Notes under the pieces: model-generated | What the model saw: the letters and a program-made list of their open reading frames with translations, nothing else | Database searches by the model: none | Told to the model about the DNA's origin: nothing | Shown here: piece by piece, positions 7,376-51,232 of the stretch | How the letters are laid out: each line of letters begins with the position of its first letter | Numbering within the stretch: position 1 is the first letter of the stretch | Translations under genes and position numbers: made by a program | Source of the DNA: Parietichytrium sp. I65-24A | Taxonomy: Eukaryota; Sar; Bigyra; Thraustochytrida; Thraustochytriidae | Length of the DNA: 64,000 bases | Reading direction: 5' to 3' | NCBI GenBank assembly: GCA_012862575.1 | Contig: BLSF01000024.1 | Span: 64,843 to 128,842, forward strand

Positions 7376-9059
7376 CCCAGTGAATCTCCACAGTATTCCA
7401 GGCCCGCCCCCATGCGTATCAACACGCTCTGTCTTTTCCGTTGGGGCTGTCATGGATTCGGAAGATAGCGTGCCGACTCCAGCTGGCATGAACCAGCAAG
7501 CAGAAAAACGTCAATCGGTGCGTTGGAGCACTCCTATCCACTGGCCTTTGCAGAATCTGAACACTTCTCTGCCGCCCCCCTGTGTCGGTTTCACATTCTT
7601 TGCTCACAGTCAGTTCGTTTCGCTGGAACTGGCTCACAGTGCGCCCGTGCGCTCGAGCACAGCATCTTTCTGCTTGACGTGCGTTCACTATCTGTTCAGC
7701 AACTCTGTCGGCAAATTCGAGTCTTAGAAGAGGACTGACTATGAGACACTCCACCCTAGGCTGCGAATCGAAACGTTTTTTCAATCGCCGGTGAACACCT
7801 GTGCGAAAGTGTCAGCACGTACCTATTGCTCTGAACTCTCTTCCCTTTAACTTACAGTCGGTTTTAGTACCAGTCAGTGCAATTTCTCGACTGCTCTTGA
7901 ATACTTTTTATAGTAAGCGATGTAAGCGAAGCATCAAGAATGGCAAACCCACTCTTAGTGAAAAGTGCGAAAGGAATCAAGAGTCTGTGGAGATCTGTGG
8001 AGGTCCATAAGTTCAGTTCACTGTCAGCTAAACCACAATTAAGCTTAGAGCCAATCATTAACCAATACCAATTCCGATATGGCGTCGTGTGTGCACTGCC
8101 TATTCGCTTAGTAAACGTAAGAGTCCCACTTCTGAACAGAAATGCACTATTGCTGACTATGTATCTTGAGTAGTGAGCGTCAGCGAGAGGAGCAAGTTGG
8201 TCGAATACTCAGTCGCTCAGGAAAGAAGTGATTACGCCACTGGAAGAGAGCGGTCCTAAAGCTAATCATGCCGTCACTATCAGTCCTAGAGGATTGAATG
8301 ACGTCAGCTTGCAAGTGGTCGGGTCACAGAAAACCAGTGAAATCACGGAAGAAAAGTGCTCTCAGAAGTACGCCGTGAGTTCCGAGAACTTGTGAAAAGA
8401 TTGTTCTCCCGTTGTGACACATTGTGACTTGAACTACAGCTGCCGAAAGAATGGCTTCGCAGTCAGAATTTCGTTCGGTTGAAAACCGCCGAAAACGAAA
8501 CCAACTTGAGCAACCGAAGAAAGAAGTCCTAACACTCGGAGAGGAGCCAATGGGGGCCAGCGCTAAAGCAATCAGTTCGAAAAGATTGCAAAGATTCTCG
8601 CAGACTACCAGAGCAGTAGACAGAGATAGAGATAGAGAGGAGAGAGAGAATGTACTCTGTTGTTACTGACTGACATGTGACTCGGAAGACTTACTTGCAA
8701 TGGTCACTCATCTCCATTGCAGCCACATATGGGGAAAAAAGTATGTTTACGTCACTCACTCACTGTCAATCATTCATTCATTCACATTCACCTGCAAAGA
8801 AGCTTACCAATGGCCACTGTCAGATACCGTCAGCGCTAAGCAGGACATCACGAGGCGAAGAGATGTGGCAGCAGAAGGATAGCAGCAGACCCCAAACGAC
8901 GAAGCACAGTTGCGAATCACCCGCCCAAACAAGGCAAGACACAGTCAATACAAGAAAAAGTCAAAAGAAGACAAGCACGCGATCATTCGAGCAGCGCAGC
9001 GCACCAGCGGACCTCTCAGTCAGTTAATCAGTGCGAGCAAACTCTCACCCAAGGCGAAA
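7376..9059. other. Intergenic, 1.7 kb
   Basis: I found no supportable gene. There are short purine repeats (GATAGA/GAGA, about 8620-8650) and a TCACTCAC/CATTCATT stretch (about 8749-8790). A 72-codon frame starting at 8451 has no recognisable features. The distal part is presumably the promoter and 5' UTR of the TIL-protein gene. Confidence 0.45.
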
Positions 9060-9953
9060 ATGACCCGAGTCCTGGCAGTAGCTGTGGTGGCGTTGGTGGC
9101 CACTTGCGCGAATGGCGTTGTGCACGGCCAATTCCGCGGGTCGGTCTCGCCGGAGACGGACATGTGCATCGGAACGCAGGTGTGGATGGAGTGCAAGCCT
9201 TGCAACCAGGGTTGCACGACCAAGGACGAACCGTGCACGACCGAGTGCGTCCCAGGATGTGGGTGCCCAGAAACTATGCCATACTTTAACGAGGAGCATG
9301 GGGAGTGCGTGGAGGAATGCCCGACGTCCGAAGACTACACCAGCGACGACTTCGGCGGAGAAGAGTACAATACCGAGGAGAACTCCGGAAACTCCGGGGA
9401 GGAGTCGCATGAGTGCCCGAGCAACCTGGTTTATGTTGGCTGCGTCAGTTGCATGGAGACCTGTGGTGAGGGAATTGTCTGCGCCGATGAAGATCCAGAG
9501 ACTGGAAAGGGCTGCATCGCCGAGTGCGGCTGTCCTTCAGAGCTTCCTGTCTTTGACCGGGAGGCGAACAAGTGCATCGCCACTTGCGAACTTTACAACT
9601 TTACCATGCCGCCGCCTCCTTCTGAGGAATTCACCGACGCACCAACAGTGAGCGAGCCTACCGACGCACCAACAGTGAGCGAGATCTGTGAGGATGGAAT
9701 GATCCATACTAATTGCGTGGACTGCAGATCCGTTTGCTTAGAGGGCGAAGTAGTTAGAATGTGCGCCAATGGATGCCTCAGTCAGTGCCAATGCCCAGAG
9801 GACAGACCACACTATGACGAAATTAATCAGAAATGCGTTGCGCAGTGCTCTGCCGCTAACCCAGACCCGTTCACTTTGAACCAGATTGTGACCGATCTCA
9901 TCGACCGTCTTAAGCAAAAGGTGAACGAGTACACCGCGGAGCACACTTCCTAA
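9060..9953 (+). CDS. Secreted cysteine-rich protein with three TIL-like modules
   Basis: 297 aa. The ATG at 9060 begins a clear signal peptide (residues about 1-23, ending near VVHG). The open frame extends upstream only through unstructured sequence, so this ATG is chosen. Three modules with ten cysteines each follow, at about 36-87, 119-176 and 210-263. Their spacing matches the trypsin-inhibitor-like (TIL) fold, including the conserved C-x-C-P segment (CGCPETMP, CGCPSELP, CQCPEDRP). Linkers are acidic or Ser/Thr-rich, and one contains a direct repeat of TDAPTVSE. There is no membrane segment or anchor. TIL modules occur in protease inhibitors and in large extracellular adhesive proteins such as von Willebrand-like proteins. 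Which role applies here cannot be read from the sequence. Confidence 0.85.
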   Translation: MTRVLAVAVVALVATCANGVVHGQFRGSVSPETDMCIGTQVWMECKPCNQGCTTKDEPCTTECVPGCGCPETMPYFNEEHGECVEECPTSEDYTSDDFGGEEYNTEENSGNSGEESHECPSNLVYVGCVSCMETCGEGIVCADEDPETGKGCIAECGCPSELPVFDREANKCIATCELYNFTMPPPPSEEFTDAPTVSEPTDAPTVSEICEDGMIHTNCVDCRSVCLEGEVVRMCANGCLSQCQCPEDRPHYDEINQKCVAQCSAANPDPFTLNQIVTDLIDRLKQKVNEYTAEHTS

Positions 9954-36540: not shown

Positions 36541-37359
36541 TCAAGCCATGTTATTCACCGGGTATGCGGTCTGGAGCTTTTGCTCCTGTACAGAGCTTTG
36601 CTGGCCACGGCGATACGCCACGTACAGTAGACCGCAGCCGGCTGCGACGCCGAGAATCACAAAGACCCCTGTTGCTGCCCCCGATGAGCTCGTAGAAGCA
36701 GATGACCCATCCGACATTAAGGCGGAATCTCCTCCAGACGATCGCGCAAGCACGTTCACATCTGCACATGAGTTGTAAAACTCTCCCTGGTTGAACTCCC
36801 ACCACCACATGAACGTGTACACGCCAGGCTCGAGGTCGTCTGGGATTGTGTACTCGCCAAGGCACTCAGCCGCATCCACGCCTGCTTGGTTTGGGCTGCA
36901 ATTGCTGAAAGTTTGTTCCAGTCCCGGATACTTGGCGACCCAGTCAGCTTTGCTTGTGATGTGGCTGAAATCGTCCCCAGCGCCTGGTGCTCTGGAGATG
37001 AATAGCTGCACGCCGCGCTGGGTTCCAACAGTGGCGTGATTTTTGGCCGGCCAACGCATGTTGATCTTGTTTCCTGCGGTCACGGTGCCCATCGGGTATG
37101 TGGCATCATAGCCGTCCTCAACGTTTGCATTTGCTTGCTGACGAGGCCCGCAAACCAGACCTGCAGGAACGTCCGCTCCCGGGCGCTGATCCCAACCAAG
37201 GTCTTGCGCCAGGGTGCCAGGCTGAGATTTAAAGTTGCGGCCGTAGCCATTGCATGTCTGTGTCTCGGCATTCCAGTCCAAGCAGTTGAGCCAGCTGTGC
37301 GCCTCGGCTGTGCCTGACAGCGCGGTGAACACCGTCATGACCGTAATCAAAGCTCTCAT
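36541..37359 (-). CDS. Membrane-anchored LPMO-like protein 1
   Basis: 272 aa; the start is the ATG at 37359, which opens a signal peptide of 20 residues ending SGTAEA. Cleavage exposes His21 as the new N-terminus (HSWLNCLDW), the copper-brace feature of lytic polysaccharide monooxygenases. A candidate second brace His is in WPAKNHATVG (His108), and the C-terminal part of the domain has YTFMWWWEFNQ and a conserved Tyr/Cys segment. By eye it is nearest the oomycete-type AA17 pattern, but the AA family is unconfirmed. After the domain come a short Ser-rich linker, one membrane helix (GVFVILGVAAGCGLLYVA), YRRG and a 20-residue tail ending AYPVNNMA. It lacks the TGGD repeats of the next two copies. 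Role inferred: oxidative polysaccharide cleavage at the cell surface. Confidence 0.82.
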   Translation of the reverse strand: MRALITVMTVFTALSGTAEAHSWLNCLDWNAETQTCNGYGRNFKSQPGTLAQDLGWDQRPGADVPAGLVCGPRQQANANVEDGYDATYPMGTVTAGNKINMRWPAKNHATVGTQRGVQLFISRAPGAGDDFSHITSKADWVAKYPGLEQTFSNCSPNQAGVDAAECLGEYTIPDDLEPGVYTFMWWWEFNQGEFYNSCADVNVLARSSGGDSALMSDGSSASTSSSGAATGVFVILGVAAGCGLLYVAYRRGQQSSVQEQKLQTAYPVNNMA

Positions 37360-38388
37360 CTTTTTTGCAATCTTGTGCTCGCGCAACGCGTCAATGATGA
37401 TTGCGGGTCTGCGCTCTTTCATTCAACTGCGCACACGTAAACAGGTGGCTTTTAGACTCGATTCGTAACCTACTTGAGAGACTTTTACCTTACTTCAAGG
37501 TTGATTCAGTACGTACTCTAAAGGGGCAGACAGCGTGCTCCTTGGTTGCAAAGATCACACTCAAGGTTTCACTTTTTTATGTTCACCTACCTGTGCAGCA
37601 TCAGCGAAGACTGGCGGCGTCTCAGCGCACCACTTTACACAAAGCAGACGTGCTCATCACAGGTTTTGCCATGAGCTCAAGCAACTGACTGTGAGGCCAG
37701 ATCTACAGTCATACAGTCAAGACAGTTGCTCATACTTTCTAATTTGCAATTTCGAACAAAGAGTTGCCACATTTTCTATTTTGCACGCACGCCAGTGTGG
37801 GATCATCCCCTGTTAGTCAATCTCGATAGATGCGTCTAGCCGAAGGCACACACTCGCAAAAACCTGCCCAAGTCGGTCAAAGCATCGCTAAGCATCGCAC
37901 TAGCTAGTCCCCACGATGGTGAGTCCGCTGAGAAAGCGTTTTATCATGACCGATAAGTATGAATGATAACAACCGTGAAGATCGCTTGAAAGAGGGAGTT
38001 CGATGGCATTCAAGTTCAATCTGTTCAAGTTCTTACGCGACCATGGCCACACGTATTACTTTCGTGTAAAACTTGTTCGCTTCGCTTAAAAAAAAAAGAT
38101 TTCTGAGATGGATATGGTGTTATTTGATTTGCGTTGCTTTGATAGAACGCACGTTGAAGCCGGCGTTGAAAGTCGGGAAGACTAGAAGGGAATAACGAAA
38201 CGAGGATAACGAGGGGAGCCACTGTTTCGCATTGCAGAGCAAGATCGTCGAACACCAAGTGGTTACCGATTACTTGTGCTTTGTCGAGTGAAGTTGGAGA
38301 TCATTGAACAAATTTGTCATGGTTCAAATTAATTATTATATAATATGTCAACACTTCATAATAAAAAGGAGGAGCGAAATTAAACGCG
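37360..38388. other. Intergenic, 1.0 kb
   Basis: Spacer between two same-strand LPMO-like genes. I see an A-run near 38089-38098 and no gene or tandem repeat. Confidence 0.45.
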
Positions 38389-39480
38389 TTAAACCATGTT
38401 CTGACGGTACTGGTACTGTGGATTCTGCTGGGCAACGTACTGCTGAGGATAGTTGCTGTATTGGCCCACCTGCTGCTGCTGCTGCTGTGGCATTTGAGGA
38501 TTCGCTGCTCTGGAAGCCTGGCCTCTCCTGAAAGCAAGAAACCCTGCTCCGACGACAATAGCAGCGCCGATTCCAGCGTAAAGTGGCATGTTGCTGGAGC
38601 TGGAAGTGGCGCTTGTCGTATCATCAGAGCTAGACGAAGAACCAGAGTTGGACCCAGTTCCAGTTCCAGTTCCAGTGCCAGTGCCAGTACCAGTTCCAGA
38701 TCCAGATCCAGTTCCAGTGCCATCGTCACCTCCAGAGCCAGTGTCGCCTCCGGTATCACCTCCGGTATCGCCACCAGTGTCACCGCCGGTATCGCCGCCA
38801 GTATCACCGCCGGTATCGCCACCAGTGTCACCGCCGGTGTCGCCGCCAGTACCACCACCAGCCTTTGCAACGACATTTACGTCCGCGCACGAATTGTAAA
38901 ACTCGCCTTGATTAAACTCCCACCACCACATGAATGTGTAGACGCCAGTCTGGAGATCGTCTGGGAGGGTAAACTCACCAAGACACTCTGCAGCATCAAC
39001 ATTAGCCTGGTTTGGGCTGCAGTTGCTGAAGGTCTTTTCGAGACCAGGATACTTGGCGATCCAGTCCGCCTTGCTGGTGATGTGGCTAAAGTCGTCTCCA
39101 GCGCCAGGAGCCCTAGAGATGAAGAGCTGCACGCCGCGCTGGGTTCCAACAGTAGCGTGATTCTTGGCTGGCCAGCGCATGTTGACCTTCTGACCGGCGG
39201 TCACGGTTCCCATCGAGTATGTCGCGTCATATCCGTCCGCAACATTGGCGTTGGGCTGCTGGCGAGGCCCGCACACGAGTCCGGCTGGAACATCTGCGCC
39301 TGGTCTCTGGTCCCAGCCGAGGTCCTGGGCAAGAGTTCCAGGCAAATTTTTAAAGTTGCGGCTGAAGCCATTGCACGTCTGTGTCGCAGCATTCCAGTCG
39401 AGGCAGTTGAGCCAGCTGTGCGCGTTGGCCGTGCTCGAGAGCGTGGCGAGGACGGAGAGTAGAGCGATGGCGCACTTCAT
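38389..39480 (-). CDS. Membrane-anchored LPMO-like protein 2
   Basis: 363 aa, ATG at 39480. It has a signal peptide of 20 residues (ends SSTANA), then His21 as mature N-terminus and His108 in WPAKNHATVG as the candidate second copper ligand. The catalytic domain (about 21-208) is nearly identical to that of LPMO-like 3 and clearly related to LPMO-like 1. A long linker follows: about nine TGGD tetrapeptides, then GT/GS repeats and a Ser run. The membrane helix is AGIGAAIVVGAGFLAF, followed by RRGQ and a Gln/Tyr-rich cytosolic tail of about 45 residues. The linker DNA is a 12 bp minisatellite (38739-38853). Expected topology: enzyme outside, tail inside. Confidence 0.83.
   Translation of the reverse strand: MKCAIALLSVLATLSSTANAHSWLNCLDWNAATQTCNGFSRNFKNLPGTLAQDLGWDQRPGADVPAGLVCGPRQQPNANVADGYDATYSMGTVTAGQKVNMRWPAKNHATVGTQRGVQLFISRAPGAGDDFSHITSKADWIAKYPGLEKTFSNCSPNQANVDAAECLGEFTLPDDLQTGVYTFMWWWEFNQGEFYNSCADVNVVAKAGGGTGGDTGGDTGGDTGGDTGGDTGGDTGGDTGGDTGGDTGSGGDDGTGTGSGSGTGTGTGTGTGTGTGSNSGSSSSSDDTTSATSSSSNMPLYAGIGAAIVVGAGFLAFRRGQASRAANPQMPQQQQQQVGQYSNYPQQYVAQQNPQYQYRQNMV
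38739..38853 (-). repeat. In-frame 12 bp minisatellite encoding TGGD linker units
   Basis: About nine units encode Thr-Gly-Gly-Asp in LPMO-like 2. The reverse frame reads as a PPVS/PV-rich open frame, which is an artefact of the repeat. Confidence 0.9.
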
Positions 39481-41764
39481 TTTCCCAAATCTGCTATATT
39501 TGAGCTTTCAGCTTTTGTTTGCTTTGCTGTGTTTGGTGTTTGCAGGCCGTGTTTCTTTCAACTTGCAAATGCCGCAACGGAGCTTCATCCAAGGTCTTCC
39601 ATTGCAAACTGTCATCTCCATGCTTGCCGCACATGAACTACCAGCAGGCTTTACCTTCAACCAGAGCCCCCCCCATCGTAGTACGCCGGCTGTATTTCCG
39701 TCTCCAAAGTGCGCATTCCCCCCTTCCCCCTTTGTTAGCCAGCCCCAGAGAGACGGTACAGTACTAGTTGGTATTGACAGCACACCAAAAGTGTTCGTGC
39801 GCAAGTCTCTCAGCCATCGAAGGAGCACAATCAGACGCTCGCCACTGCCTGGGTGCAATTGACAGTGAAAGCCAAGACGGAACGCAGCATTCCCGCATAC
39901 CTTTACTTACACCTTTGAACCATTTCAACCAAAAATAGAGTCGTCTGATTTGATACAAGGTGTGACTTTCATCTTATCAAATCTTTTATCTATCATCTCG
40001 CATCTCTAAACCTTTGCGCGCTCGGGGCTTAGCGAGCAAATAGCTCGAGTTGGTAAGAGCGCGACTTCTAGTTTGTGTTGTTGAATGAATAGAAGATGGC
40101 GAGTGTTGTTGAAGGAATAAAAGATGGCGAGCGTCCAATTTTTGGCGCAGATATGAAAGCGTTGGAAAGCATCGAAAGCGCCGTTGCGAGGTAAGATGAA
40201 TTACTGAGCTGAGTTGAGCGCGAGATTGTGTCGCCACGACTCAGCAAATAAAGACGGTTTCCCAAGGGTTCTATGGTTTCCCCAGTTGTATCTAGTAGAG
40301 GGAGCGCTTTCATATGCAATTTGGGGCGCATGGACAATTGGCGGTGTGGTACCTTCACAGAACGTCAACCTCTTGGACTTTTGTTTCCTCTTGCGAGCCG
40401 TATCGCAAGCCGAGTGGGCGAAGAATGCTTGGCGAGTGGCCCATTTGAGATGAGACCGAGGCTTACTTTTGCCTTCGTTTGGAGTATGTCGTGGGTAGCG
40501 ATGCAAGTCCACGAAGCCATCGAGGAACAATGTGCTTTTTGTATTTGACGTCTTGGAGCGCGTTCGTCAGGCTGGCGCCACATTTGCCACCCAGCGTGAA
40601 GACTCGACGTTCTTTGGCATCGTGCACGCAGCACACTTGACTCAAAAAGAATCCCAGATATGCGCGTGTGTCAACCCGTCCTGGACACTGTAGAGCGCAC
40701 ACCCCATTCGGGCAGTTTGTCGGTGGTGGTTGACCATTTGAGTTGCTTATTGGATGCGGATTGGCATCTGCAAGGCATTGAGGCCGCGTGTTCATGCGCT
40801 TAAGCTTGGGCAGTTGGCAAGGAAGAGTCCGCTTGGATTGGCGAGGCACTGTTCATGAATGTATCGCCAAATTAAAAGTAAATCCTCTTTTAGTGAGACG
40901 GAATGATTTGTTTTACTTTTAATTCAAGCGGAGGCAACATCAAAGCTCACTCGAGAGCGCCTTCGAGGATCATTCCTCGTCAAGAATGCCGTGCTTTCAG
41001 AGCAGATCAGCTGATCTCCATGCGACTTCTTGATGCACGTAAGGGGCGATATTTCCATCGCAGAGTTGCACTTGAATTCTTGGACACATGTAGTATCGCA
41101 TCCAAGCGAAAGTGCGTGTCAGCAGGGAAACTTGGCCCGAATAAACATCTTTTTTCTATTTCTAGATGTATTTTTCACGATCAAACTTGGTCACAACTAA
41201 GCAAGCCAAGGCCTCGTCCGAATACTATCGTCTTATGCTAAATTGTCGAGTTGAAATGGCATTATCTAACACTTCAGATGACATGGCGAGTGCGAGGAAA
41301 TTGAAAGTAAAGTTTCGACGAAGCTGGGACGGAGAGTCACTTTTGCGTAATTTATAGAATGGATTTGTTCCTTTAGCTAACAAGCGACAGTTCATCAACG
41401 CGAGCACGTTTTACTGCGTTCGCAACGTCCTGTGCGTAGAGGAACATTAGATTTACCAGTGCTTGACGATCGCGACGAAGTGCTCGCCAACGGTGTGGCT
41501 ACCTTTTAGATGGCCACGCATGTTGAGCTTTTAACCGGCAGTCACGTTTCGCATCTAGTAAGTCGAGTCCCATCCTTCCGCAACCTTGGCGTCGGGCTGC
41601 TGACGAGGCACAAACGCAAACAGGACAAGAAATGCAGCGTGTCAGGGATGACGGCCAAAGCATGGTGCGAATGTGAGGAAGAGAGAAACAAGAATCAGAA
41701 TTACAAATGTTAAGGAGATGATTGAAGAGGTTTGAAAACCCAGTTCAGAGCGGGAGAGGAGCAT
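39481..41764. other. Intergenic, 2.3 kb, with an LPMO relic
   Basis: Apart from the decayed LPMO fragment near 41455-41615 I find nothing convincing. A 128-codon frame (40463-40849, minus) has no recognisable motif. Confidence 0.5.
41455..41615 (-). pseudogene. Decayed LPMO-like gene fragment
   Basis: On the minus strand this stretch aligns by eye with the segment around the PRQQPNAN to KNHATVG region of the LPMO-like genes. A one-base loss after the first Cys shifts the frame, and two in-frame stops follow. Recognisable words remain (PRQQP, NVTAG, LNM). It lacks signal peptide, linker and anchor, and lies 150 bp beyond the 3' end of LPMO-like 3. It is a relic of an additional tandem copy. 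Confidence 0.8.
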
Positions 41765-42850
41765 TTACACCTGGTACCCATAGGTTGGTTGCTGACCCCT
41801 TCTGTACTGGTCTTTGCTCTCCCATCCGTGGTTGTCACCTCGGTACTGAGTGACAACTTGGCCTGGGGGAGACTCAGAGCCACCAATTTTCTGGCCCCGT
41901 TTGTATGCAACAACTCCTGCGACTACGATCACCGCAGCAGCAACACCAGCAAAGACAGGTAAATTATTTGGGCTTGACGATGCGGTTTGGTCTGATGTGT
42001 CAGTTTCGCTTCCAGAACCAGTTCCAGAGTCAGAGCCAGTGTCACCGCCAGTGTTGTCACCAGCGTCACCGCCAGTGTCGCCACCAGTGTCACCGCCAGT
42101 GTCACCGCCGTTGTCGCCGCCAGTGTCACCGCCGTTGTCGCCGCCAGTGTCACCGCCGTTGTCGCCGCCAGTGCCACCCCCGGTGTCGCCGCCAGTGCCA
42201 CCCCCGGTGTCGCCGCCAGTACCACCACCAGCCTTTGCAACGACATTTACGTCCGCGCACGAATTGTAAAACTCGCCTTGATTAAACTCCCACCACCACA
42301 TGAATGTGTAGACGCCAGTCTGGAGATCGTCTGGGAGGGTAAACTCACCAAGACACTCTGCAGCATCAACATCAGCCTGGTTTGGGCTGCAGTTGCTGAA
42401 GGTCTTTTCGAGACCAGGATACTTGGCGATCCAGTCCGCCTTGCTGGTGATGTGGCTAAAGTCGTCTCCAGCGCCAGGAGCCCTAGAGATGAAGAGCTGC
42501 ACGCCGCGCTGGGTTCCAACAGTAGCGTGATTCTTGGCTGGCCAGCGCATGTTGACATTTTGACCGGCAGTCACGGTTCCCATCGAGTATGTCGCGTCAT
42601 ATCCGTCCGCAACATTGGCGTTGGGCTGCTGGCGAGGCCCGCACACGAGTCCGGCTGGAACATCTGCGCCTGGCCTCTGGTCCCAGCCGAGGTCCTGGGC
42701 AAAAGTTCCAGGCTGATTTTTAAAGTTGCGGCTGAAGCCATTGCATGTCTGCGTCGCAGCATTCCAGTCGAGGCAGTTGAGCCAGCTGTGCGCGTTGGCC
42801 GTGCTCGAGAGCGTGGCGAGGACGGAGAGTACAGCGATGGTGCGCTTCAT
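41765..42850 (-). CDS. Membrane-anchored LPMO-like protein 3
   Basis: 361 aa, ATG at 42850. Signal peptide (ends SSTANA), His21 mature N-terminus and His108 are as in copy 2. The catalytic domain differs from copy 2 by only a handful of residues (for example L to Q and L to F near residues 46-50, K to N near 98, N to D in SPNQADVDA). The linker is longer and less regular (TGGD, NGGD and TGGG units). The helix is AGVAAAVIVVAGVVAY, followed by KRGQ and a Gln/Tyr-rich tail. DNA similarity to copy 2 stops sharply at the start codon and at the linker. Confidence 0.83.
   Translation of the reverse strand: MKRTIAVLSVLATLSSTANAHSWLNCLDWNAATQTCNGFSRNFKNQPGTFAQDLGWDQRPGADVPAGLVCGPRQQPNANVADGYDATYSMGTVTAGQNVNMRWPAKNHATVGTQRGVQLFISRAPGAGDDFSHITSKADWIAKYPGLEKTFSNCSPNQADVDAAECLGEFTLPDDLQTGVYTFMWWWEFNQGEFYNSCADVNVVAKAGGGTGGDTGGGTGGDTGGGTGGDNGGDTGGDNGGDTGGDNGGDTGGDTGGDTGGDAGDNTGGDTGSDSGTGSGSETDTSDQTASSSPNNLPVFAGVAAAVIVVAGVVAYKRGQKIGGSESPPGQVVTQYRGDNHGWESKDQYRRGQQPTYGYQV
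42031..42222 (-). repeat. In-frame minisatellite encoding TGGD/NGGD linker units
   Basis: 12 bp units as in copy 2 but in different number and order, with Asn and Gly variants. The DNA similarity between copies 2 and 3 breaks down at this repeat. Confidence 0.85.
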
Positions 42851-45020
42851 CTTTACGGGGGCTCGTTATTTTGGTTTTGGTGTCTGTTCACTCGTATACC
42901 ACGGAAAGTGGCGAAGGCTCACTAGATCCGACTATACAGCTATTGTGATTCATTGACAATCAGGGAGTGCAACATTTACACTGTTGGGCTTTCTAGTCCC
43001 CTGCCAATCAAGGTCAGCCCTGGTGTCGATTGATGTTGCCAAGTGCCGCCAGCGTCGCCAGTGATTTGCGAACGAGAAATTAGAAGTGGGCTCTCGTAGT
43101 TAACAGCATTATCCGGCATATTCGACTGACTGCTTCACTTGCTTCTTTTCGACGGTCGAGATTGACATCCGTCGGAGGAGTTTCAGATGTTCAAAGTGTG
43201 AGAAGAAATGATATGTTATTGACGCGACTACAGTCAGTACCAGTTCAGAGCGGCTTTTCACTCCTCTGTCCGGCCCGGCGATGCACATCGGTTGCAGAGT
43301 ACTCGTACATTGATTGTGAATGAACAAGAGCCCCAGCAACCGTTGACCTTAAACACTTCAACGCTCGAAAGCATAAAGCTCAAGCTCCCTCTCTCTATGC
43401 TAGGACACCTCAAACACATTGCCTGAGACGGCAGTACACACTCTCGTCGCACACCCAAAAATTTGCGCTTTCTACTGTATCCATTAATAAAAGAGGATAG
43501 GACCTAGTCTGAATTAATCGTAATGCAGTAATGTCCAGAAAATGGACGCGTGACCGAAAATGGGAATGGGCCAAAAAAAGTAAAAACCCAAAGTAAACAG
43601 TGAAATCAAAGGAAAACAGCACTACGCAGAAGAGGATTGGCTTGTTGGGTCTAATTGCACTGTCGCGTCTCTGGTCCTGCAACCGCTGAGGGCCAGGAGC
43701 TGCGACCAGGTGTGTATGTGAAGATCTGTGCCTCTGCGCCTCTGTGCCACGCTAAGCTCGTCGGAGATCAAGGATATGCCGGCCCCTCTCCAAGTCCTGG
43801 CTTGGGCACAGGACCAACTTTATCATAAAAACAACTTTAATCAATTTTACAGAATTCAGTAAAAAGTGAAGTAGTTTAGGTAACGATGGCAGTCGGCGAG
43901 TTCGCACTGGCGCTGCGGTAGTGGCGCTACTCAAAAACAAGTAAAATCTGAGTCAAAAGTGTTCTTACGGCTCTCGCCAAATAGTCAGCCCTCAAGGAGG
44001 GATGGATTGAAGGAAGGAGGGAGGGAGGGAACTCGATTGTGAACTAGCTGCTGGTAGTGTGGCGAAGGGAGAGGCAAGGCCAATGTTGGCGTATCGAGAC
44101 ACACGCCCTCGGCCTCACTGGCAGTTGAGCTCCCATCAGTGATCCAGTGAATCCATCCACGATCCCCCGCCGGCATACATTTCTGAGCCATTCGGTGTTT
44201 AGACCAAGTGTGGCATTGACAAGCTTGGTGGTTTTGGCTGCGTTGGCTTATGCACAGATCTTGCGCCTTGGAGGCCGGCTCAATGGCTCGCCTTCCTTGA
44301 GCCCGCGAGGGGTGTTTTGGCCAACTGATTGCTATTGTTTTGCCACAAGAGTAATCGATTTTTTGGATTGAGAGTTTTGGTCGTGCTCGTGGAGCTCAAA
44401 TAAGCATCACTGACAGTCAACCAAGAGCTAATTCTCAGTATTGTTGTTGTGAAAGATACAGACAGTGCGCTAGTGGACGCCGTCCAAGCGCCATATTATG
44501 CTGCGCTACGAGTACGCAGTACCTTGATCGCGACCCTGGTCTCCCTGGTCAGCTTGACTTTGTGTGCAGTGTTTGTGTGTACCTGACTAGTCCTATGAGT
44601 ACCGCGACGCCAAAACGTAGGATCATGCTATCTGAAAGTTTTAGCCTCGCGCGCTTGCACAATTAATGCGATACAAGTCATTGGACTTTGAACTGCATAG
44701 CTCTTGGGAATGACTTTCCCTCTGCCAGGTATAGTACTAGTTCGTGCGCGTCTGCTCACGCGCCTTGTTCCTCCCCCGTAAGAAGAACTTTCTAGCTTCC
44801 CCTCCCTTCCTTCCGAAATGTGCTCTGCTGCAATTGGCTTCTTTTGGGGGACTTTGAATGAGAGTTGTCGAGGGCGACACTCTTGTTCTCGTTGCACCTA
44901 GGGTGAAAGAACGATTAATTACGCTTCGGCTACTTTAGCCCTGCTGGTGTAAAACGTTGAGTCTGTTGAGTCTCCACGACAAACCCGAATCAAGTTGAAT
45001 ACGCCTTGGCGGTTGCAGCG
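42851..45020. other. Divergent intergenic region between LPMO and GH5 genes, 2.2 kb
   Basis: It separates the minus-strand LPMO group from the plus-strand GH5 group and so contains both outer promoters. I find no gene, relic or tandem repeat beyond a short AGGG/AAGG stretch (about 44003-44030). Confidence 0.45.
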
Positions 45021-46682
45021 ATGATGACACGGAGGATTATATCAGCTCTTGCCATCTTGGCAGTGCTTCGCGAAACCGAGGCAGAATGCACGACAGGAAC
45101 CATCGATACCGGCACGGACTGCAGGACCACCCCAGATTGCTGCCCGACCGGAACTTCATGCTATGAAAAGAATGAGTACTGGGCTGGTTGCTTGGCCAGC
45201 TGCACAGCTGGAATGACCGACGATTACGACTCCAATCCGTGGGCTTGCACATTGCTGAGTGGAACGGGCACTGGTGGAGGCACTGGATCAGGAAGCTCCA
45301 TCCCGACAACTTGCACTGGGCTGGCAAGCTATACAGGGACTGCTGCGAGTGGCGAAGGGTTTGCCACCAAGCACGGCAAACTCACCTTGAGCGGTGTCCA
45401 GCTTGTCGATGCCAGCGGAACTGCGGTCCAGCTGCGCGGCATGAGCAGTCACGGAATTCATTGGTTTCCTACATGCTACAGCAAGGAGTCCATGCAATCT
45501 ATCGTGCAAAGCTGGGGAGTCAACCTCTGGCGAATTGCTATGTACATCGGCGAGGAAGGATACGCCACAGACGCCGCAACAAATAAAGCCCGCGTTATCG
45601 AGCAGGTGCAATGGGCCGAAGAGCTCGGAATTTACGCGATCATTGACTGGCACGTTCTCAGCCCTGGCGATCCAAACGCGTGGCTCGACTCTCAGGGAGC
45701 CAGCACCGGTCTTGCGATTGATTTTTGGAAAGAAATGGCGACCAAGTACAAGGACAAGTCCCACGTTCTCTATGAAATCGCGAATGAGCCGAACGCAGTG
45801 GAGTGGACTGCAGTTCGCGCGTACCATGACGCAGTGATCTCTGCGATTCGCGCAATCGATTCGAAGACCATCATTCTCGCAGGCACCACGAACTGGAGTC
45901 AGGACATTCATCTTGCCGCAGCCAACCCAGTCTCCAACCCAACAAATGTGATGTACTCGTTCCACTTTTATGCCGGATCTCACCTCGCTTTCCTTGCTCG
46001 TGTAAATGAGTACAAGACGAAGATCCCAATCTTCGTGACAGAGTGGGGCACTTCGGAGGCATCTGGAGACGGAGGCCCGTACTTGGACAACACTAAACAG
46101 TTCTTGGAAGCCTTCACCTCTGGCGGCGTGCTTCTCAGCTGGGCTCAGTGGTCTTTGGCCGACAAGAACGAGATAAGCGCCGCCCTGACTGAAGGTGCAT
46201 GCGCAGCAAAGACATGGGATTCAACCACATGCTCTGGAACCTACGTCAAGAGTTGGCTTCGAGTCGCTGCAGCTGCTGATGGCACAGGGACTGGAGGCGG
46301 TGATGACGGCGGTGATGACGGTGGTGATGACGATGGTGGCACCGGAGGCGATGGAGGCGGTGGTGATACCGGAGGCGATGGCGACGGTGGTGACACTGGC
46401 GATGATGATACTGGCGATGATGATACTGGCGATGGTGACACTGGCGATGATGACACTGGCGATGATGACACTGGCGATGGCACGGGAGACAGTGGCAACA
46501 CTGGCAGCACAGGAGGAAGCAGCTCTGATAGCCAGGAGTCCTCCAGCAACAGCACAATTGCTATCTTTGCAGGAGTTGGCGCAGCCGCAGTCATTCTTGT
46601 TTCCTTTTTTGCATATCGCCGTGGAAAACAAGCTCGTTTGGCGTTTGAGCAAAAACAGGTGACAAGCGCCCCAAGCTACTAA
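45021..46682 (+). CDS. Membrane-anchored GH5 endoglucanase-like protein with CBM1-like module, copy 1
   Basis: 553 aa; the start is the ATG at 45021 (MMTRR...), with a signal peptide ending RETEA. A cysteine-rich module (about 23-78) contains CCPTGTSCYEKNEYWAGCL, which resembles the Cys and aromatic spacing of fungal-type CBM1 cellulose-binding modules. A Gly/Ser linker follows, then a GH5 (beta/alpha)8 domain (about 95-410). The acid/base is Glu256 in IANEP and the nucleophile is Glu341 in VTEWG; both are intact. The NEP and TEWG context fits subfamily GH5_2-like endo-beta-1,4-glucanases. A strongly acidic GDDDTGDD linker leads to a membrane helix (IFAGVGAAAVILVSFFAY), RRGK and a tail containing QKQVTSAPSY. 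Role inferred: cellulose or beta-glucan cleavage at the cell surface. Confidence 0.9.
   Translation: MMTRRIISALAILAVLRETEAECTTGTIDTGTDCRTTPDCCPTGTSCYEKNEYWAGCLASCTAGMTDDYDSNPWACTLLSGTGTGGGTGSGSSIPTTCTGLASYTGTAASGEGFATKHGKLTLSGVQLVDASGTAVQLRGMSSHGIHWFPTCYSKESMQSIVQSWGVNLWRIAMYIGEEGYATDAATNKARVIEQVQWAEELGIYAIIDWHVLSPGDPNAWLDSQGASTGLAIDFWKEMATKYKDKSHVLYEIANEPNAVEWTAVRAYHDAVISAIRAIDSKTIILAGTTNWSQDIHLAAANPVSNPTNVMYSFHFYAGSHLAFLARVNEYKTKIPIFVTEWGTSEASGDGGPYLDNTKQFLEAFTSGGVLLSWAQWSLADKNEISAALTEGACAAKTWDSTTCSGTYVKSWLRVAAAADGTGTGGGDDGGDDGGDDDGGTGGDGGGGDTGGDGDGGDTGDDDTGDDDTGDGDTGDDDTGDDDTGDGTGDSGNTGSTGGSSSDSQESSSNSTIAIFAGVGAAAVILVSFFAYRRGKQARLAFEQKQVTSAPSY
46290..46500 (+). repeat. In-frame repeat encoding acidic GDDDTGDD linker of GH5 copy 1
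   Basis: GATGATGATACTGGC-type units encode an Asp/Gly/Thr linker. It is more acidic than the TGGD linkers of the LPMO-like genes. Confidence 0.85.
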
Positions 46683-48008
46683 ACGTTCCTTTTCCATGCC
46701 GCCAGTCGTTTCGCGTCGGTGAAAACGTAGCTAATGATTTACTTGAGTATTGTAAAATTATATTTCTTTCAGAACCCAAAAAAACTTTTAGAGTTACGTG
46801 TTCGCCGAACCCTTCCACGCTTGTGGTCCGGCAAATATCGGCAATTGCTTTTCTCTGGCCCTCACAGACAAAGCATACAGCCGCGGTTGCGGTTGGCGGC
46901 ATCTGTTCTAACAGATATGCATCATCTTGCTTCCAAAAATACATGTTTCCTCTCGCAATAACGGGCTGTCCAGCACCGCCAAAATGAGCCCTGTATCTCT
47001 TTATAAATAAATTTTTCATGTCGCGGTCTGCCCTGGAGAGCATATAGATAGGCCGTCGCAGCTTGCTAAGTGACGACCGCCGTCGAGGAACTATTGCGAG
47101 AGCTGATAACAACCCACTTATAGTACCGGTACTGTACCAAAAACACAACATTGAACTTTTTCAACCCGACCTGGGCGGAGACTCACCGCTGGAGTCACTC
47201 GCGACTGGCCGGCTATTTCCAAGGTATTCAGATCTCCTCGATGCAAGCCATCACTCCCGACATCTCCCGCCGCCCCGTTGCGACGACTCCCCTACCGATT
47301 CCGAGAGAAAAGAGGATTCCATGATGAAGATAATCCCGAGACTTGCGTGTGTTGCTCGGCAACAAGCAACAAAAGATCTCACATGTCAACAATCAACCAT
47401 CAACAACCAGACGAGAAACCACCCTCTCCTCTTTTGCACAACTTGGTCTCGTGTCAACTTTTATACTCTTGCGCTAACCGTGGCAACGCTTTACCAATGC
47501 ATAGATTGCATTGATTGCATAGACCAACCAAGGGCGGAAAAAGTGGTGCACACGGTGGCTTGCCGAGTGGCGAATAGGCAAAGCGCTATGTGAGCGAGCG
47601 CAACGTTGTGAACTTCCATTACACGGTTAACTGTTCTTAGATGAGTCGACTGAGCTGTGGCGAATGTATAACTTTGTGTGAAGAGCAGTTGGATTTGCAA
47701 GATTGTCCTGACTTGCGCTGTCTCTGCCCAGCCCAAACTACTCAACAGCGGCTTTGCCTGCAAAGCTCTTTGCTAGATCGGTGTTGGTGGCAGTGCTGGT
47801 GGTAGACCAGTGCCCTCGCCTGCTTGGCGCAAGTTTGGTTTGGACGGCCTTGAGCTCGTACAGCCTCGAATTGTCAACGTACCCAGCTTCTCTCGCACCT
47901 CTCAAGCTCCGTTTTGCACGTGCAAAGCGCAGAGTGCCAAGCGGACGGCGAGGTTTCGGACTTGTGGAGTCGCGACCCTTAATTCTGCAAGGAAAAAAGG
48001 CAGGAAGG
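46683..48008. other. Intergenic, 1.3 kb
   Basis: Spacer between the two GH5 genes. A minus-strand frame (46591-47151, 186 codons) overlaps the end of GH5 copy 1 and has no recognisable motif. No tandem repeat is seen. Confidence 0.45.
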
Positions 48009-49508
48009 ATGGCCCGGAAATTGGTGACCGGGGCGCTTGGCATGCTCTGGTTGGCTGCAGTTGCTGAAGCAGAATGCACGACAGGGACCATCGATACCGG
48101 CACGGACTGCAGGGAAACCCCCGATTGCTGCCCGACCGGAAAAACGTGCTACGAAAAGAATGAGTACTGGGCCGGGTGCTTGGACAGCTGCACAGTTGGA
48201 ATGACCGACGATTATGACTCCAATCCGTGGGCTTGCACTGTTTTGAGCAGCACAGGGGGAGATACTGGCGGAGACAGTGGTGGCGACACTGGATCAGGAG
48301 GTTCCATTCCGACAACTTGCACTGGGCTGGCAAGCTATACAGGGACTGCTGCGAGTGGCGAAGGGTTTGCCACCAAGCACGGCAAACTCACCTTGAGCGG
48401 TGTCCAGCTTGTCGATGCCAGCGGAACTGCAATTCAGCTGCGCGGCATGAGCAGTCACGGAATCCACTGGTTTCCTACATGCTACAGCAAGGAATCCATG
48501 CAATCTATCGTGCAAAATTGGGGAGTCAACCTCTGGCGAATTGCTATGTACGTTGGCGAGAACGGATACGCCACAGACGCCGCAACAAATAAAGCCCGCG
48601 TTATCGAGCAGGTGCAATGGGCCGAAGAGCTCGGAATTTACGCGATCATTGACTGGCACGTTCTCACCCCTGGCGATCCAAACGCGTGGCTCGACTCTCA
48701 AGGAGGCAGCACCGGTCTTGCGATTGATTTTTGGAAAGAAATGGCGACCAAGTACAAGGATAAGAGCCACGTGTTTTACGAAATCGCGAATGAGCCGAAC
48801 GGAGTGGAGTGGACTGCAGTTCGCGCGTACCATAACGCAGTGATCTCTGCGATTCGGGCAATCGATTCAAAGACCATCATTCTCGCAGGCACCACGAACT
48901 GGAGTCAGGACATTCATCTTGCCGCAGCCAACCCAGTCTCCAACCCAACAAATGTGATGTACTCGTTCCACTTTTATGCTGGGACCCACATGTCGCTTCT
49001 TGCTCGTGTAAATGAGTACAAGACACAGATCCCAATCTTCGTGACGGAGTGGGGCACTTCGGAGGCATCTGGAGACGGAGGCCCGTACTTGGACAACACC
49101 AAATTGTTTCTGGACGAGTTCACGGCTGACGGAATTTTGATTAGCTGGGCTCAGTGGTCTTTGGCAGATAAGAACGAGATTAGTGCCGCCCTGACCGAAG
49201 GAGCCTGCACTTCCAAATCCTGGAGCTCAACGACATGCTCTGGAACCTACGTCAAGAGCTGGCTGCAAGTTTCAGCAGCTGCTGATGGAGACGGGAGTGG
49301 AACCGGAACCGGAACCGGGAGCGGGAGCGGATCGGGTTCCGACGATGACAAGTTGATTCTTGGCGAAGATCCTACAACGTTTGGAATTCTAGTTGGAGTA
49401 GGAGCTGCCTGCTTGATCTTTGTTACCTACTTTGCGTATCGCCGTGGTGTCGCCTCTTCACAAGCGAATTCCCCACAGAAGCAAGTGTCGAATTACCAGA
49501 CTTACTAA
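48009..49508 (+). CDS. Membrane-anchored GH5 endoglucanase-like protein with CBM1-like module, copy 2
   Basis: 499 aa from the ATG at 48009, chosen because it begins a signal peptide (MARKLVTGALGMLWLAAVAEA); the frame extends upstream without such features. The layout is the same as copy 1: CBM1-like module (CCPTGKTCYEKNEYWAGCL), GGDTGGDSGGD linker, and a GH5 domain with acid/base Glu262 (NEP) and nucleophile Glu347 (TEWG). Catalytic DNA is nearly identical to copy 1, but the signal peptide, both linkers and the anchor differ. A GT/GS linker, a helix (FGILVGVGAACLIFVTYFAY), RRGV and a tail with QKQVSNYQTY complete it. Its last ~175 coding bases are repeated after the N at 49585. Confidence 0.9.
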   Translation: MARKLVTGALGMLWLAAVAEAECTTGTIDTGTDCRETPDCCPTGKTCYEKNEYWAGCLDSCTVGMTDDYDSNPWACTVLSSTGGDTGGDSGGDTGSGGSIPTTCTGLASYTGTAASGEGFATKHGKLTLSGVQLVDASGTAIQLRGMSSHGIHWFPTCYSKESMQSIVQNWGVNLWRIAMYVGENGYATDAATNKARVIEQVQWAEELGIYAIIDWHVLTPGDPNAWLDSQGGSTGLAIDFWKEMATKYKDKSHVFYEIANEPNGVEWTAVRAYHNAVISAIRAIDSKTIILAGTTNWSQDIHLAAANPVSNPTNVMYSFHFYAGTHMSLLARVNEYKTQIPIFVTEWGTSEASGDGGPYLDNTKLFLDEFTADGILISWAQWSLADKNEISAALTEGACTSKSWSSTTCSGTYVKSWLQVSAAADGDGSGTGTGTGSGSGSGSDDDKLILGEDPTTFGILVGVGAACLIFVTYFAYRRGVASSQANSPQKQVSNYQTY

Positions 49509-49584
49509 ACGACTTGTTTGAAGTAAAATTTAACTCGATTTTATTTTCCAGCCTTTTCGCAGTTCTTTGGCAATAGTAGACGTT
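49334..49584. repeat. Left copy of an exact-length 251 bp duplication flanking an N
   Basis: The 3' end of GH5 copy 2 plus its 3' flank; it matches 49586-49836 base for base except for two substitutions that I can see. Confidence 0.92.
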
Positions 49585-49585
49585 N
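49585..49585. other. Single N at an apparent contig join
   Basis: It separates two head-to-tail 251 bp copies. The left copy ends and the right copy begins exactly at the N, as expected when overlapping contig ends are joined instead of merged. Confidence 0.92.
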
Positions 49586-49836
49586 GGGTTCCGACGATGA
49601 CAACTTGATTCTTGGCGAAGATCCTACAACGTTTGGAATTCTAGTTGGAGTAGGAGCTGCCTGCTTGATCTTTGTTACCTACTTTGCGTATCGCCGTGGT
49701 GTCGCCTCTTCACAAGTGAATTCCCCACAGAAGCAAGTGTCGAATTACCAGACTTACTAAACGACTTGTTTGAAGTAAAATTTAACTCGATTTTATTTTC
49801 CAGCCTTTTCGCAGTTCTTTGGCAATAGTAGACGTT
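49586..49836. repeat. Right copy of the 251 bp duplication (not a separate gene)
   Basis: It repeats the GH5 copy 2 anchor, tail, stop and 3' flank without any upstream coding region. It should be treated as overlap, not as a gene fragment. Confidence 0.9.
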
Positions 49837-50761
49837 GAATCTGACTTGATTTGCATTTAAGAAAAACATCAACGCTCTGACTTATTGCCTACGCAATGGA
49901 AGCATCGGTCTTTGAACTCAAGGAAAAGTTATTTGAATGCGACTGGTACCTAAAAGTGTATTACGCATACACAATGTAATTGATTGCATCACTGAACCGA
50001 CAACGGTGTTTTTATGGAGCGTACGCGCGTGAGCGTTTCTTTTGATTAGGGCTAGCCCAGGGTCAGGCAAAGTGATCTTTGGGTTTGCGTCAAATTGCGC
50101 CAAGATCGACCCACATGCGCTCATGTTCGAACGTGCAATAGCTAGACCTAACGAAGGTATCAAGTGGGAGTTTCCAACTCGCGAGTGACTGGGAGCCAGC
50201 CTACCTCTCCATCTCATGCCGACCTGGGCGACACGTCCCTGTAATGCATGGACTCCTCGAAACGCGGGCTACTTGCTCTAAAACACATCAGATACTACGC
50301 ATATTGCAAGTCCTCCCATCTATCTCTCCCAACTCGCAATTGGACTTGCGCCGCAATTTTTTCGCTACGAGTTTCGCACCATGCTATCCCTCAGCTACCA
50401 ACAAATATAGGAACTTCGCCTGGCAAGAGTGTGCGACTTGCAGAGCCGGCTTGCGCCACAAATGCAGTGCCTCGCATTGAGGACAGAAGAGTAGACGCTC
50501 GAAAGTTCGAGGATGTATCGGCTGAGAGCGGGTCTGAGAGAGTCGTTGCTCGATGTAGCGTGGAAAGTGTATTAACTTACTCGTTGTCAGCAGTTGGCAG
50601 TCGGCAGTCGGCAGTCAAGAGACACTATGCAGTGTCAGTGGTCATTATCGAGCAAGTCATAATGTTTGCGCCTGCTGTCGCAGTAGCTGCCGAGGAGGTT
50701 GGAGCGGAAAAGCGTTGGGCAGCTCTTGCAATCACCAAATTGGAGCGTTTTGAAATCGACT
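49837..50761. other. Intergenic, 0.9 kb
   Basis: Apart from a CAGTCGGCAGT repeat at about 50590-50612, I see nothing. It is presumably the promoter of the small surface-protein gene. Confidence 0.45.
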
Positions 50762-51232
50762 ATGTGGTTGTCAGTGCAACTCTGCTTGGCCGGCGTTCTC
50801 GCGGCTGGTTTTGCCGCTGCCTTGCAGGTGGGGCTGGATGCGGATACTGAGTTGGCATTAAACATGTACGGCTGGCAAGCCGGCGAGTCCACGCAAGAAT
50901 TAAACAGCATCGATTTTAATGAGACAGAGGGATGCAGCAGTTGTGGGCAGCGAAATGCATTGGTTCACGTGCAGCTATACCCTACAAGCATGTGGGAAAG
51001 CGCGGAAGTTTCAGTCTCACTCGATAAGACGCAGATGATGCATCAACAATTCTTGATAGAGAGTTTGAAGGAAACCGGAGTTTGCCGAAGCGCACAAGTC
51101 GGGGGATTGACTCAGATGGCTGCTTCAAGATCTCTCGAAAGTGCAGTATTTACGAGCGGGGGCAACTCCTCTGAGGCAGTGTTTGTTCCTACTGTTGTGA
51201 TTCTTTTAGCAATCGTGATCTGCGTTGCTTGA
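50762..51232 (+). CDS. Small secreted protein with GPI-like C-terminus
   Basis: 156 aa from the ATG at 50762, which starts a signal peptide (MWLSVQLCLAGVLAAGFAAA); the frame upstream lacks such features. The mature part has few cysteines (CSSCGQ and one near GVCRS) and no recognised domain. The last ~20 residues are hydrophobic right up to the stop (VFVPTVVILLAIVICVA) and follow a small-residue patch (GGNSSEA). This is the pattern of a GPI-attachment signal, without the basic tail of the neighbouring enzymes. It lies just downstream of the surface CAZyme cluster, so it may be another surface component. Function unknown. Confidence 0.6.
   Translation: MWLSVQLCLAGVLAAGFAAALQVGLDADTELALNMYGWQAGESTQELNSIDFNETEGCSSCGQRNALVHVQLYPTSMWESAEVSVSLDKTQMMHQQFLIESLKETGVCRSAQVGGLTQMAASRSLESAVFTSGGNSSEAVFVPTVVILLAIVICVA

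Follow-up and report, generated by a model that had tools for sequence, protein, structure and literature searches.

A related predicted membrane anchor on LPMO-like and GH5 endoglucanase-like proteins

Introduction

Lytic polysaccharide monooxygenases (LPMOs) have been studied mostly as freely secreted enzymes, and known GH5 endoglucanases are mostly free or modular. Here we describe five genes on a 64,000-nucleotide stretch of contig BLSF01000024.1 (the window), three LPMO-like (LP1, LP2 and LP3) and two GH5 endoglucanase-like (GHA and GHB), whose products are all predicted to be held in the membrane by a single C-terminal helix, and we relate them to similar genes across the genome. Single tethered LPMOs are already known; what is new is an anchor common to most of the LPMO repertoire plus GH5.

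Several surface-bound LPMO types have been described. Insect AA15 group II proteins (LPMO15-2) resemble those described here in having a signal peptide, an LPMO domain and a predicted C-terminal transmembrane span; unlike them, they form one animal LPMO family, and in the available passages the tether is not described as common with hydrolases (PMC9156745). The bacterial AA10 enzyme ScLPMO10D also has a low-complexity linker (Gly/Asp/Ala/Ser), a C-terminal hydrophobic stretch and a positive tail, but it carries a sortase LAETG signal and is attached to the wall (PMC10067821); no such motif can be seen by eye in our five tethers. GPI (glycosylphosphatidylinositol)-anchored LPMOs and X325 LPMO-like proteins are surface-bound too (PMC8615602, PMC13353379): GPI anchors are listed for some AA9, AA14, AA15 and AA16 members (PMC8615602), and X325 proteins have an extra Asp copper ligand. 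The five proteins, in contrast, have a helix plus a charged, predicted cytosolic tail, and no terminal GPI signal. Among the hydrolases, solved GH5 endoglucanases (6gjf, 5wh8 and 1h11, "Endoglucanase 5A"), which we take to be of subfamily 2, match GHA in catalytic domain and motifs; unlike them, GHA and GHB are tethered and have a Cys-rich N-terminal module.

Labyrinthulomycetes secrete cellulases of GH5_2, GH9 and GH3. Botryochytrium sp. S-28 and Oblongichytrium sp. S-429 are both reported to have GH5_2 in their secretomes (PMC10101102). The main text of that paper contains no occurrence of LPMO or transmembrane, and a search of the present genome for GH9 found none. A search of open-licence literature, judged from titles, the openings of abstracts and passages of selected papers, yielded no tethered LPMO repertoire in a protist. 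Work on the ectoplasmic nets of Schizochytrium aggregatum, reportedly published by Iwata and Honda in 2018, may anticipate a membrane-held cellulase.

Results and Discussion

Five predicted type I membrane proteins

The main features of the window were read from its open reading frames (ORFs), and positions are those of the window. All five ORFs are uninterrupted, at the positions given by an earlier sequence-only reading of this DNA; in LP1, GHA and GHB the probable start lies downstream of the ORF start. The LPMO-like genes are on the minus strand. LP1 (36541-37422, a 293-aa ORF with a probable initiator Met at 37359) has its signal peptide at 37300-37359, with His as the first residue of the mature chain, and its transmembrane segment at 36619-36675 (mean Kyte-Doolittle hydropathy 2.09), after which come AYRRG and a tail with NNMA at its end. 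LP2 (38389-39480, 363 aa) has a signal peptide at 39421-39480 and a transmembrane segment at 38530-38586 (1.85), followed by RRG and a tail that contains NPQY and ends in QNMV. The corresponding parts of LP3 (41765-42850, 361 aa) are at 42791-42850 and 41906-41962 (2.57), with YKRG next and YGYQV at the end of the tail. In all three an AxA ends the signal peptide and His follows, the cleavage site being judged by eye.

The GH5 genes lie on the plus strand. GHA (45006-46682) is a 558-aa ORF with a probable Met at 45021 or 45024, and its layout is a signal peptide (about 45024-45083), the Cys-rich N-terminal module, the catalytic domain, an Asp/Gly linker, a transmembrane helix (46557-46613; 2.5) and, after YRRG, a 22-residue tail. 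GHB (47754-49508; probable Met 48009) has a signal peptide at about 48009-48071 and a transmembrane segment at 49380-49436 (2.23), followed by YRRG and a 23-residue tail.

Topology was judged from hydropathy and charge. The C-terminal 19-residue segments have mean Kyte-Doolittle values of 1.85-2.57 across all five proteins; the eight residues preceding the helix carry a net charge of 0 to -2, the twelve following it +1 to +3, and the tail extends 22-46 residues beyond it. As far as hydropathy tells, LP1-3, GHA and GHB are predicted type I membrane proteins. A GPI anchor was considered and ruled out, because a GPI segment should end the precursor and here a charged tail continues past it. Intact ORFs, hydropathy, charge and Pfam matches therefore bear out what had been proposed for all five: a signal peptide, a catalytic domain, a linker and one C-terminal helix, with a true helix rather than GPI holding the protein in the membrane. 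The helix, whose absence had been named beforehand as one refuting observation, is present in every one by hydropathy.

Catalytic identity of the GH5 and LPMO-like proteins

By sequence similarity, the GH5 identity of GHA and GHB is certain. Both match Pfam Cellulase (E-values 1.8e-53 and 3.5e-53, respectively), and GHA aligns over nearly all of its best match, 6gjf, which is the structure of a bacterial endoglucanase (E 1e-78). Conserved NEP and TEWGT motifs are present in GHA and likewise in GHB, and both catalytic Glu residues, the acid/base and the nucleophile, are retained in the two proteins. Their N-terminal Cys-rich modules gave no match to Pfam CBM_1; the Cys spacing alone resembles CBM1.

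The assignment of LP1-3, which we call family A, as LPMO-like proteins is good but indirect. Pfam DUF7492 scores 28.7 bits in LP1, 29.1 in LP3 and 22.2 in LP2 (cut-off 27, LP2 falling below it), and LPMO_10 scores 20.5 in LP1 and 19.7 in LP3, both below the cut-off of 23, with LP2 unlisted. No Pfam AA9 match was found in LP1-3, and an NCBIfam scan gave no match above cut-off. Searched against the PDB by sequence, family A gave AA11 matches only (E 0.12 and 0.28); the matches of full-length LP2 mostly reflected the make-up of its linker, apart from a single weak AA11 hit (E 0.17). As to the immunoglobulin-like beta-sandwich fold that marks LPMOs, the AlphaFold model of the family-A domain is poor (pLDDT 53.5, pTM 0.54) and its TM-scores against the PDB are only 0.32-0.45; the 20 top-ranked matches are nevertheless LPMOs without exception (AA9 and AA10). 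All four family-A copies, the fourth being introduced below, have the first His, a second His (H88, in NHA) and YNSCADV unchanged, and LP1-3 thus appear to retain the N-terminal and second His of a predicted copper brace. Between the catalytic domains of LP1 and LP2, dN is 0.06 and dS 1.76 (nonsynonymous and synonymous divergence), implying strong purifying selection on the domain. Two short peptide patterns found no viral or prokaryotic relatives of family A, a weak absence.

The tether recurs across the LPMO-like repertoire

The genome (42.5 Mb in 172 contigs) was searched in six frames; the true numbers of genes may exceed those given here. The fourth family-A gene (C1L) lies on contig C1, at 75% identity and with a CBM1 and a helix. 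Family B, which is AA9-like and matches Pfam AA9, is found on contigs C45 and C12; the C12 ORF has no Met ahead of its His, its first exon and signal peptide lying outside the ORF seen. Family C, with an N-terminal HT[IV], has ten copies: one each on C94 and C68, and the other eight in an array of tethered genes that spans less than 20 kb of contig C11 (519828-539105). The C94 copy, located through its CBM1, was the family-C member scanned, and it matched no Pfam family except CBM_1 and no PDB sequence. The AlphaFold model of family C is also poor (pLDDT 46.4; TM-scores 0.27-0.36), and ranks 1-21 are LPMOs. Profile comparison of the catalytic domains of family A and family C gives a probability of only 17%; the second His residues line up. 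Two short peptide patterns found no prokaryotic relatives of family C, again a weak absence.

A C-terminal hydrophobic segment (1.72-2.61) plus a tail is present in each of the 16 proteins of families A, B and C. Thus, of the 17 LPMO-like genes found independently of the tether, 16 carry one, and they belong to three distinct LPMO types; the sole exception is a fusion of LPMO_10 with a GH18 chitinase in one ORF on C4 (L013:1433-3892). A further single-copy gene, family D (C1:572612; L018:974-2098), encodes a tethered, His-first protein (HARFHCPVPR) with no Pfam or PDB match. It was found by the tether search and is therefore excluded from the 16 of 17; possibly it is a fourth LPMO-like type.

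Subtilases served as a control. They gave 25 matches, of which 12 were inspected (five from one array), and four of the 12 have a C-terminal helix; the difference from the LPMO-like genes (Fisher p 0.0009) is descriptive only, as LPMO paralogues are not independent. Two of the tails of the tethered subtilases (L021, L025, L026) end in VVVRDV, as does that of a neighbouring tethered ORF (L021:3395-4489). The 13-kb cluster in the window had been regarded as special. Its helices stand, but the tether is not restricted to it.

The GH5 survey covered the ORFs of all nine Pfam matches in the genome. Five align with GHA over the domain, and four of these (GHA, GHB and copies on C1 and C75) have a C-terminal helix. 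The fifth, a sister on contig C4, has a CBM1 and no helix, implying that the GH5 enzyme does not need the tether. At the threshold used, the other four matches have no single C-terminal helix: two have N-terminal helices, one has three mid-protein helices and one has none. The two further tethered copies have altered motifs. In the C1 protein NEP has become GAP, with loss of a catalytic Glu, and in the C75 protein LGWKAT stands in place of TEWGT; both ORFs are open, with predicted cytosolic tails of 122 and 113 residues, and our guess is that these proteins might bind or sense cellulose. Their long tails have a PVFxF stretch in common (L001:5240-6754 and L004:1243-3099).

The anchors of LPMO-like and GH5 proteins are related

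Tethers were compared by composition-preserving shuffles within stalk, helix and tail, giving a Z score, with a background of 66 other hydrophobic segments drawn from six-frame ORFs that include some non-genes. Between different catalytic domains, Z for the tethers rises to about 11. Z exceeds 3 in 46 of 100 cross-family tether pairs, compared with 0.68% of 1,320 tether-background pairs (maximum 5.2). A chance likeness of hydrophobic segments was ruled out by these shuffles and the background. In hhalign, tether profiles of LPMO families A and C match those of GH5 at 96.9% and 95.8%, respectively, against 81% for a subtilase/GH5 control, so that likeness among membrane anchors in general contributes to any tether score. 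When the genome was searched with a single 48-aa GH5 tether, 13 matches were returned, ten with E <0.005 and three with E 0.02-0.07: the query, a repeat copy adjacent to GHB, GHB itself, eight LPMO genes (LP1-3, C12, C68 and C11e-g), family D and one non-enzyme. On these alignments and profiles, the LPMO and GH5 anchors are homologous.

The tether comes in two versions. A YRRG-like form is found in family A (LP1-3), family B (C12), family C (C68 and six of the eight C11 copies) and GH5 (GHA and GHB), and a form combining CBM1 with YKK is found in families A (C1), B (C45) and C (C94). That the two versions cross over the three families suggests separate histories for tether and catalytic domain, a pattern that argues for tether swapping between genes. 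Some tethers are hard to place: C11a fits poorly with either version, C11c lacks YKK yet stands closest to the group that has it, and no clear relation to the other tethers was seen for the helices of the GH5-like proteins on C1 and C75. A C13 helical-repeat protein (L019:1546-3000) has an LPMO-like tether (YKKRKQQ), with NPQY in its tail.

Catalytic and tether DNA have diverged to different extents. The catalytic DNA of LP2 and LP3 is 98.2% identical (dS 0.048), compared with 47% in tether plus tail; C11f and C11h are 100% identical over 705 catalytic bases, compared with 64% in the tether; and GHA and GHB show 92% compared with 50%. Synonymous divergence follows the same course, at 3.6 in the tether of LP2/LP3 against 0.048 in the catalytic half, and 0.67 against 0 for C11f/C11h, the tether values being rough because they come from short, diverged alignments. 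Since synonymous change also differs between the halves, relaxed constraint alone is a poor explanation. Conversion of the catalytic halves with drift of the tethers, or replacement of the tethers, would fit the contrast, and the two are not separable. The linkers of LP2, LP3, GHA and GHB have repeat DNA in common (71-87% identity). Tandem Repeats Finder reports 12-bp and 48-bp repeats encoding Gly/Asp/Thr repeats in the LP2 linker (38737-38861, minus strand), and 17.3 copies of a 12-bp unit in that of LP3 (42024-42231, minus strand). Such repeat DNA is a plausible crossover site.

The tails beyond the helix also have features in common. Among 17 LPMO-like proteins (families A to C together with family D), nine have [NHST]M[LIVA] at the C-terminus, compared with none of 105 other ORFs of at least 200 aa, not all of which are genes; the bearers are LP1, LP2 and seven members of family C, among which the C11 copies are related to one another. 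This tail end is possibly a sorting signal. NPxY-like motifs occur in the tails of LP2 (NPQY), C1L (NPKY), C45 (NPMY) and C11b (NPKY), and the GH5 tails end in SAPSY and YQTY.

A second divergent GH5/LPMO locus

The family-A gene and the GH5-like gene on C1 are about 3.3 kb apart and divergently oriented, repeating the arrangement seen in the window. Under random placement, the chance of one LPMO gene lying within 5 kb of one of the three outside GH5-like loci is about 7e-4, a post hoc estimate. The recurrence of this pairing favours a functional link. In the window, the divergent LP3 and GHA genes are separated by a 2,155-bp spacer (42851-45005), possibly a common control region. The idea of a meaningful local cluster is therefore upheld in part: the GH5/LPMO linkage is supported by the second locus, whereas the grouping of like genes reflects mainly tandem duplication (LP2/LP3, GHA/GHB).

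How the tethered enzymes might act

From the domain order, the related anchors, their recurrence across the genome and the unequal divergence of catalytic and anchor parts, we infer a surface-tethered set of type I LPMO and GH5 proteins with an exchangeable anchor, serving contact digestion. We consider this reading fairly probable. The signal peptide would be cleaved and the catalytic domain would face outward on a flexible stalk, with the single helix inserted across the membrane and the short tail in the cytosol. The LPMO domains would use a copper His brace to make nicks in a crystalline polysaccharide that is probably cellulose; the tethered GH5 endoglucanases would then cut the loosened chains, and sugar would be freed within reach of the cell surface. 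The anchor itself would be a portable module, exchanged between LPMO and GH5 genes with the repeat linker as the crossover point, while gene conversion would keep the catalytic halves alike as the anchors drift. The enzymes may sit on ectoplasmic nets and may function together, as the sequence-only reading had supposed. Aplanochytrium is reported to digest diatoms on contact and not to release the enzymes into the medium (PMC6326421). This is the kind of phenotype that might be expected, in what may or may not be a related organism; a genome search for the FabA domain, a marker of polyunsaturated fatty acid synthase, gave no match, which is uninformative either way on a labyrinthulomycete lineage.

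Several observations weigh against this reading. Tandem duplication alone is enough to account for genes of one type lying together. The profile similarity is in part general to membrane anchors, as the 81% control indicates, and the line between the two tether versions is blurred, C1L and C12 scoring a Z of 5.8. LP2 (13 bits, cut-off 15.9) and C13 have sub-threshold matches to Gram-positive LPXTG anchor models. The tether extends beyond polysaccharide enzymes, to the four subtilases and the C13 non-enzyme. Both AlphaFold models are poor, and at the second divergent locus the functional link is weakened by a GH5 protein that lacks a catalytic Glu. Finally, the Gly-rich helices may be open to cleavage, and the enzymes could be shed.

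This last point leads to an unlikely alternative, regulated shedding, in which the type I proteins are precursors and a protease, perhaps of rhomboid type, severs them at the stalk or within the Gly-rich helix, so that the working enzymes are free. Gly-rich helix runs are typical of rhomboid substrates; here the helices are rich in Gly and Ala, with GxG and GGG runs, and the Gly/Asp/Thr linkers are long and exposed. Yet helix, basic flank and tail have been retained despite sequence drift, the common tail end suggests that the tail matters, and a helix-free GH5 version already exists on C4. The tails might instead direct the proteins to digestive vacuoles through their Tyr and NPxY-like motifs. 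We find this endolysosomal route very improbable: an NPxY-like motif was seen by eye in only four of 17 LPMO-like tails, those named above, and the GH5 tails have their own endings.

The tethered LPMO and GH5 proteins might also act on the cell's own wall or coat rather than on food. A wall turnover role has been considered for the wall-anchored ScLPMO10D (PMC10067821), and an insect AA15 is required in cuticle turnover (PMC9156745). However, 17 tethered LPMO copies (family D included), CBM1 modules and endoglucanase-type GH5 proteins would fit cellulose feeding better, and we regard self-remodelling as improbable. Slightly less credible still is the view that there is no system at all, the cluster reflecting tandem duplication alone and the helices a neutral habit of this lineage's secreted proteins. 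The paralogues are indeed recent and some subtilases are tethered too, but the tether is far more frequent among the LPMO-like genes, and the second GH5/LPMO locus, with its post hoc chance estimate, repeats the same divergent order. A more elaborate form of the surface-digestion reading is also conceivable, though we think it rather unlikely: a swappable anchor, on a recombination-prone repeat linker, would hold three or four LPMO types plus GH5 on a feeding membrane, tails would carry delivery signals, and the broken GH5 paralogues with long tails (C1 and C75) would be cellulose sensors that report contact with food.

If surface tethering with contact digestion is correct, copper redox chemistry and the released sugar would be kept at a eukaryotic cell surface, providing a molecular explanation of contact digestion by osmotrophic protists. 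The common anchor would also offer a handle, since one trafficking mutant might affect many enzymes. Secretome pipelines that filter out transmembrane-helix proteins may lose most LPMOs of organisms like this one.

Other features of the window

A degenerate family-A gene fragment with internal stops lies at 41483-41611 (minus strand). The tether end of GHB is directly repeated at 49334-49836 (plus strand), in copies of 251 bp that are identical at 249 of 251 positions, with an N at 49585 between them. We initially read this repeat as an evolutionary event and dropped that view: the N between the copies raises the suspicion of an assembly join, and the repeat may be an artefact. Adjoining the cluster, a small ORF at 50687-51229 has a hydrophobic, GPI-like C-terminal end and no Pfam match. 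Farther away, an ORF at 8883-9950 has a weak trypsin-inhibitor-like (TIL) match (23.0 bits, cut-off 24.5).

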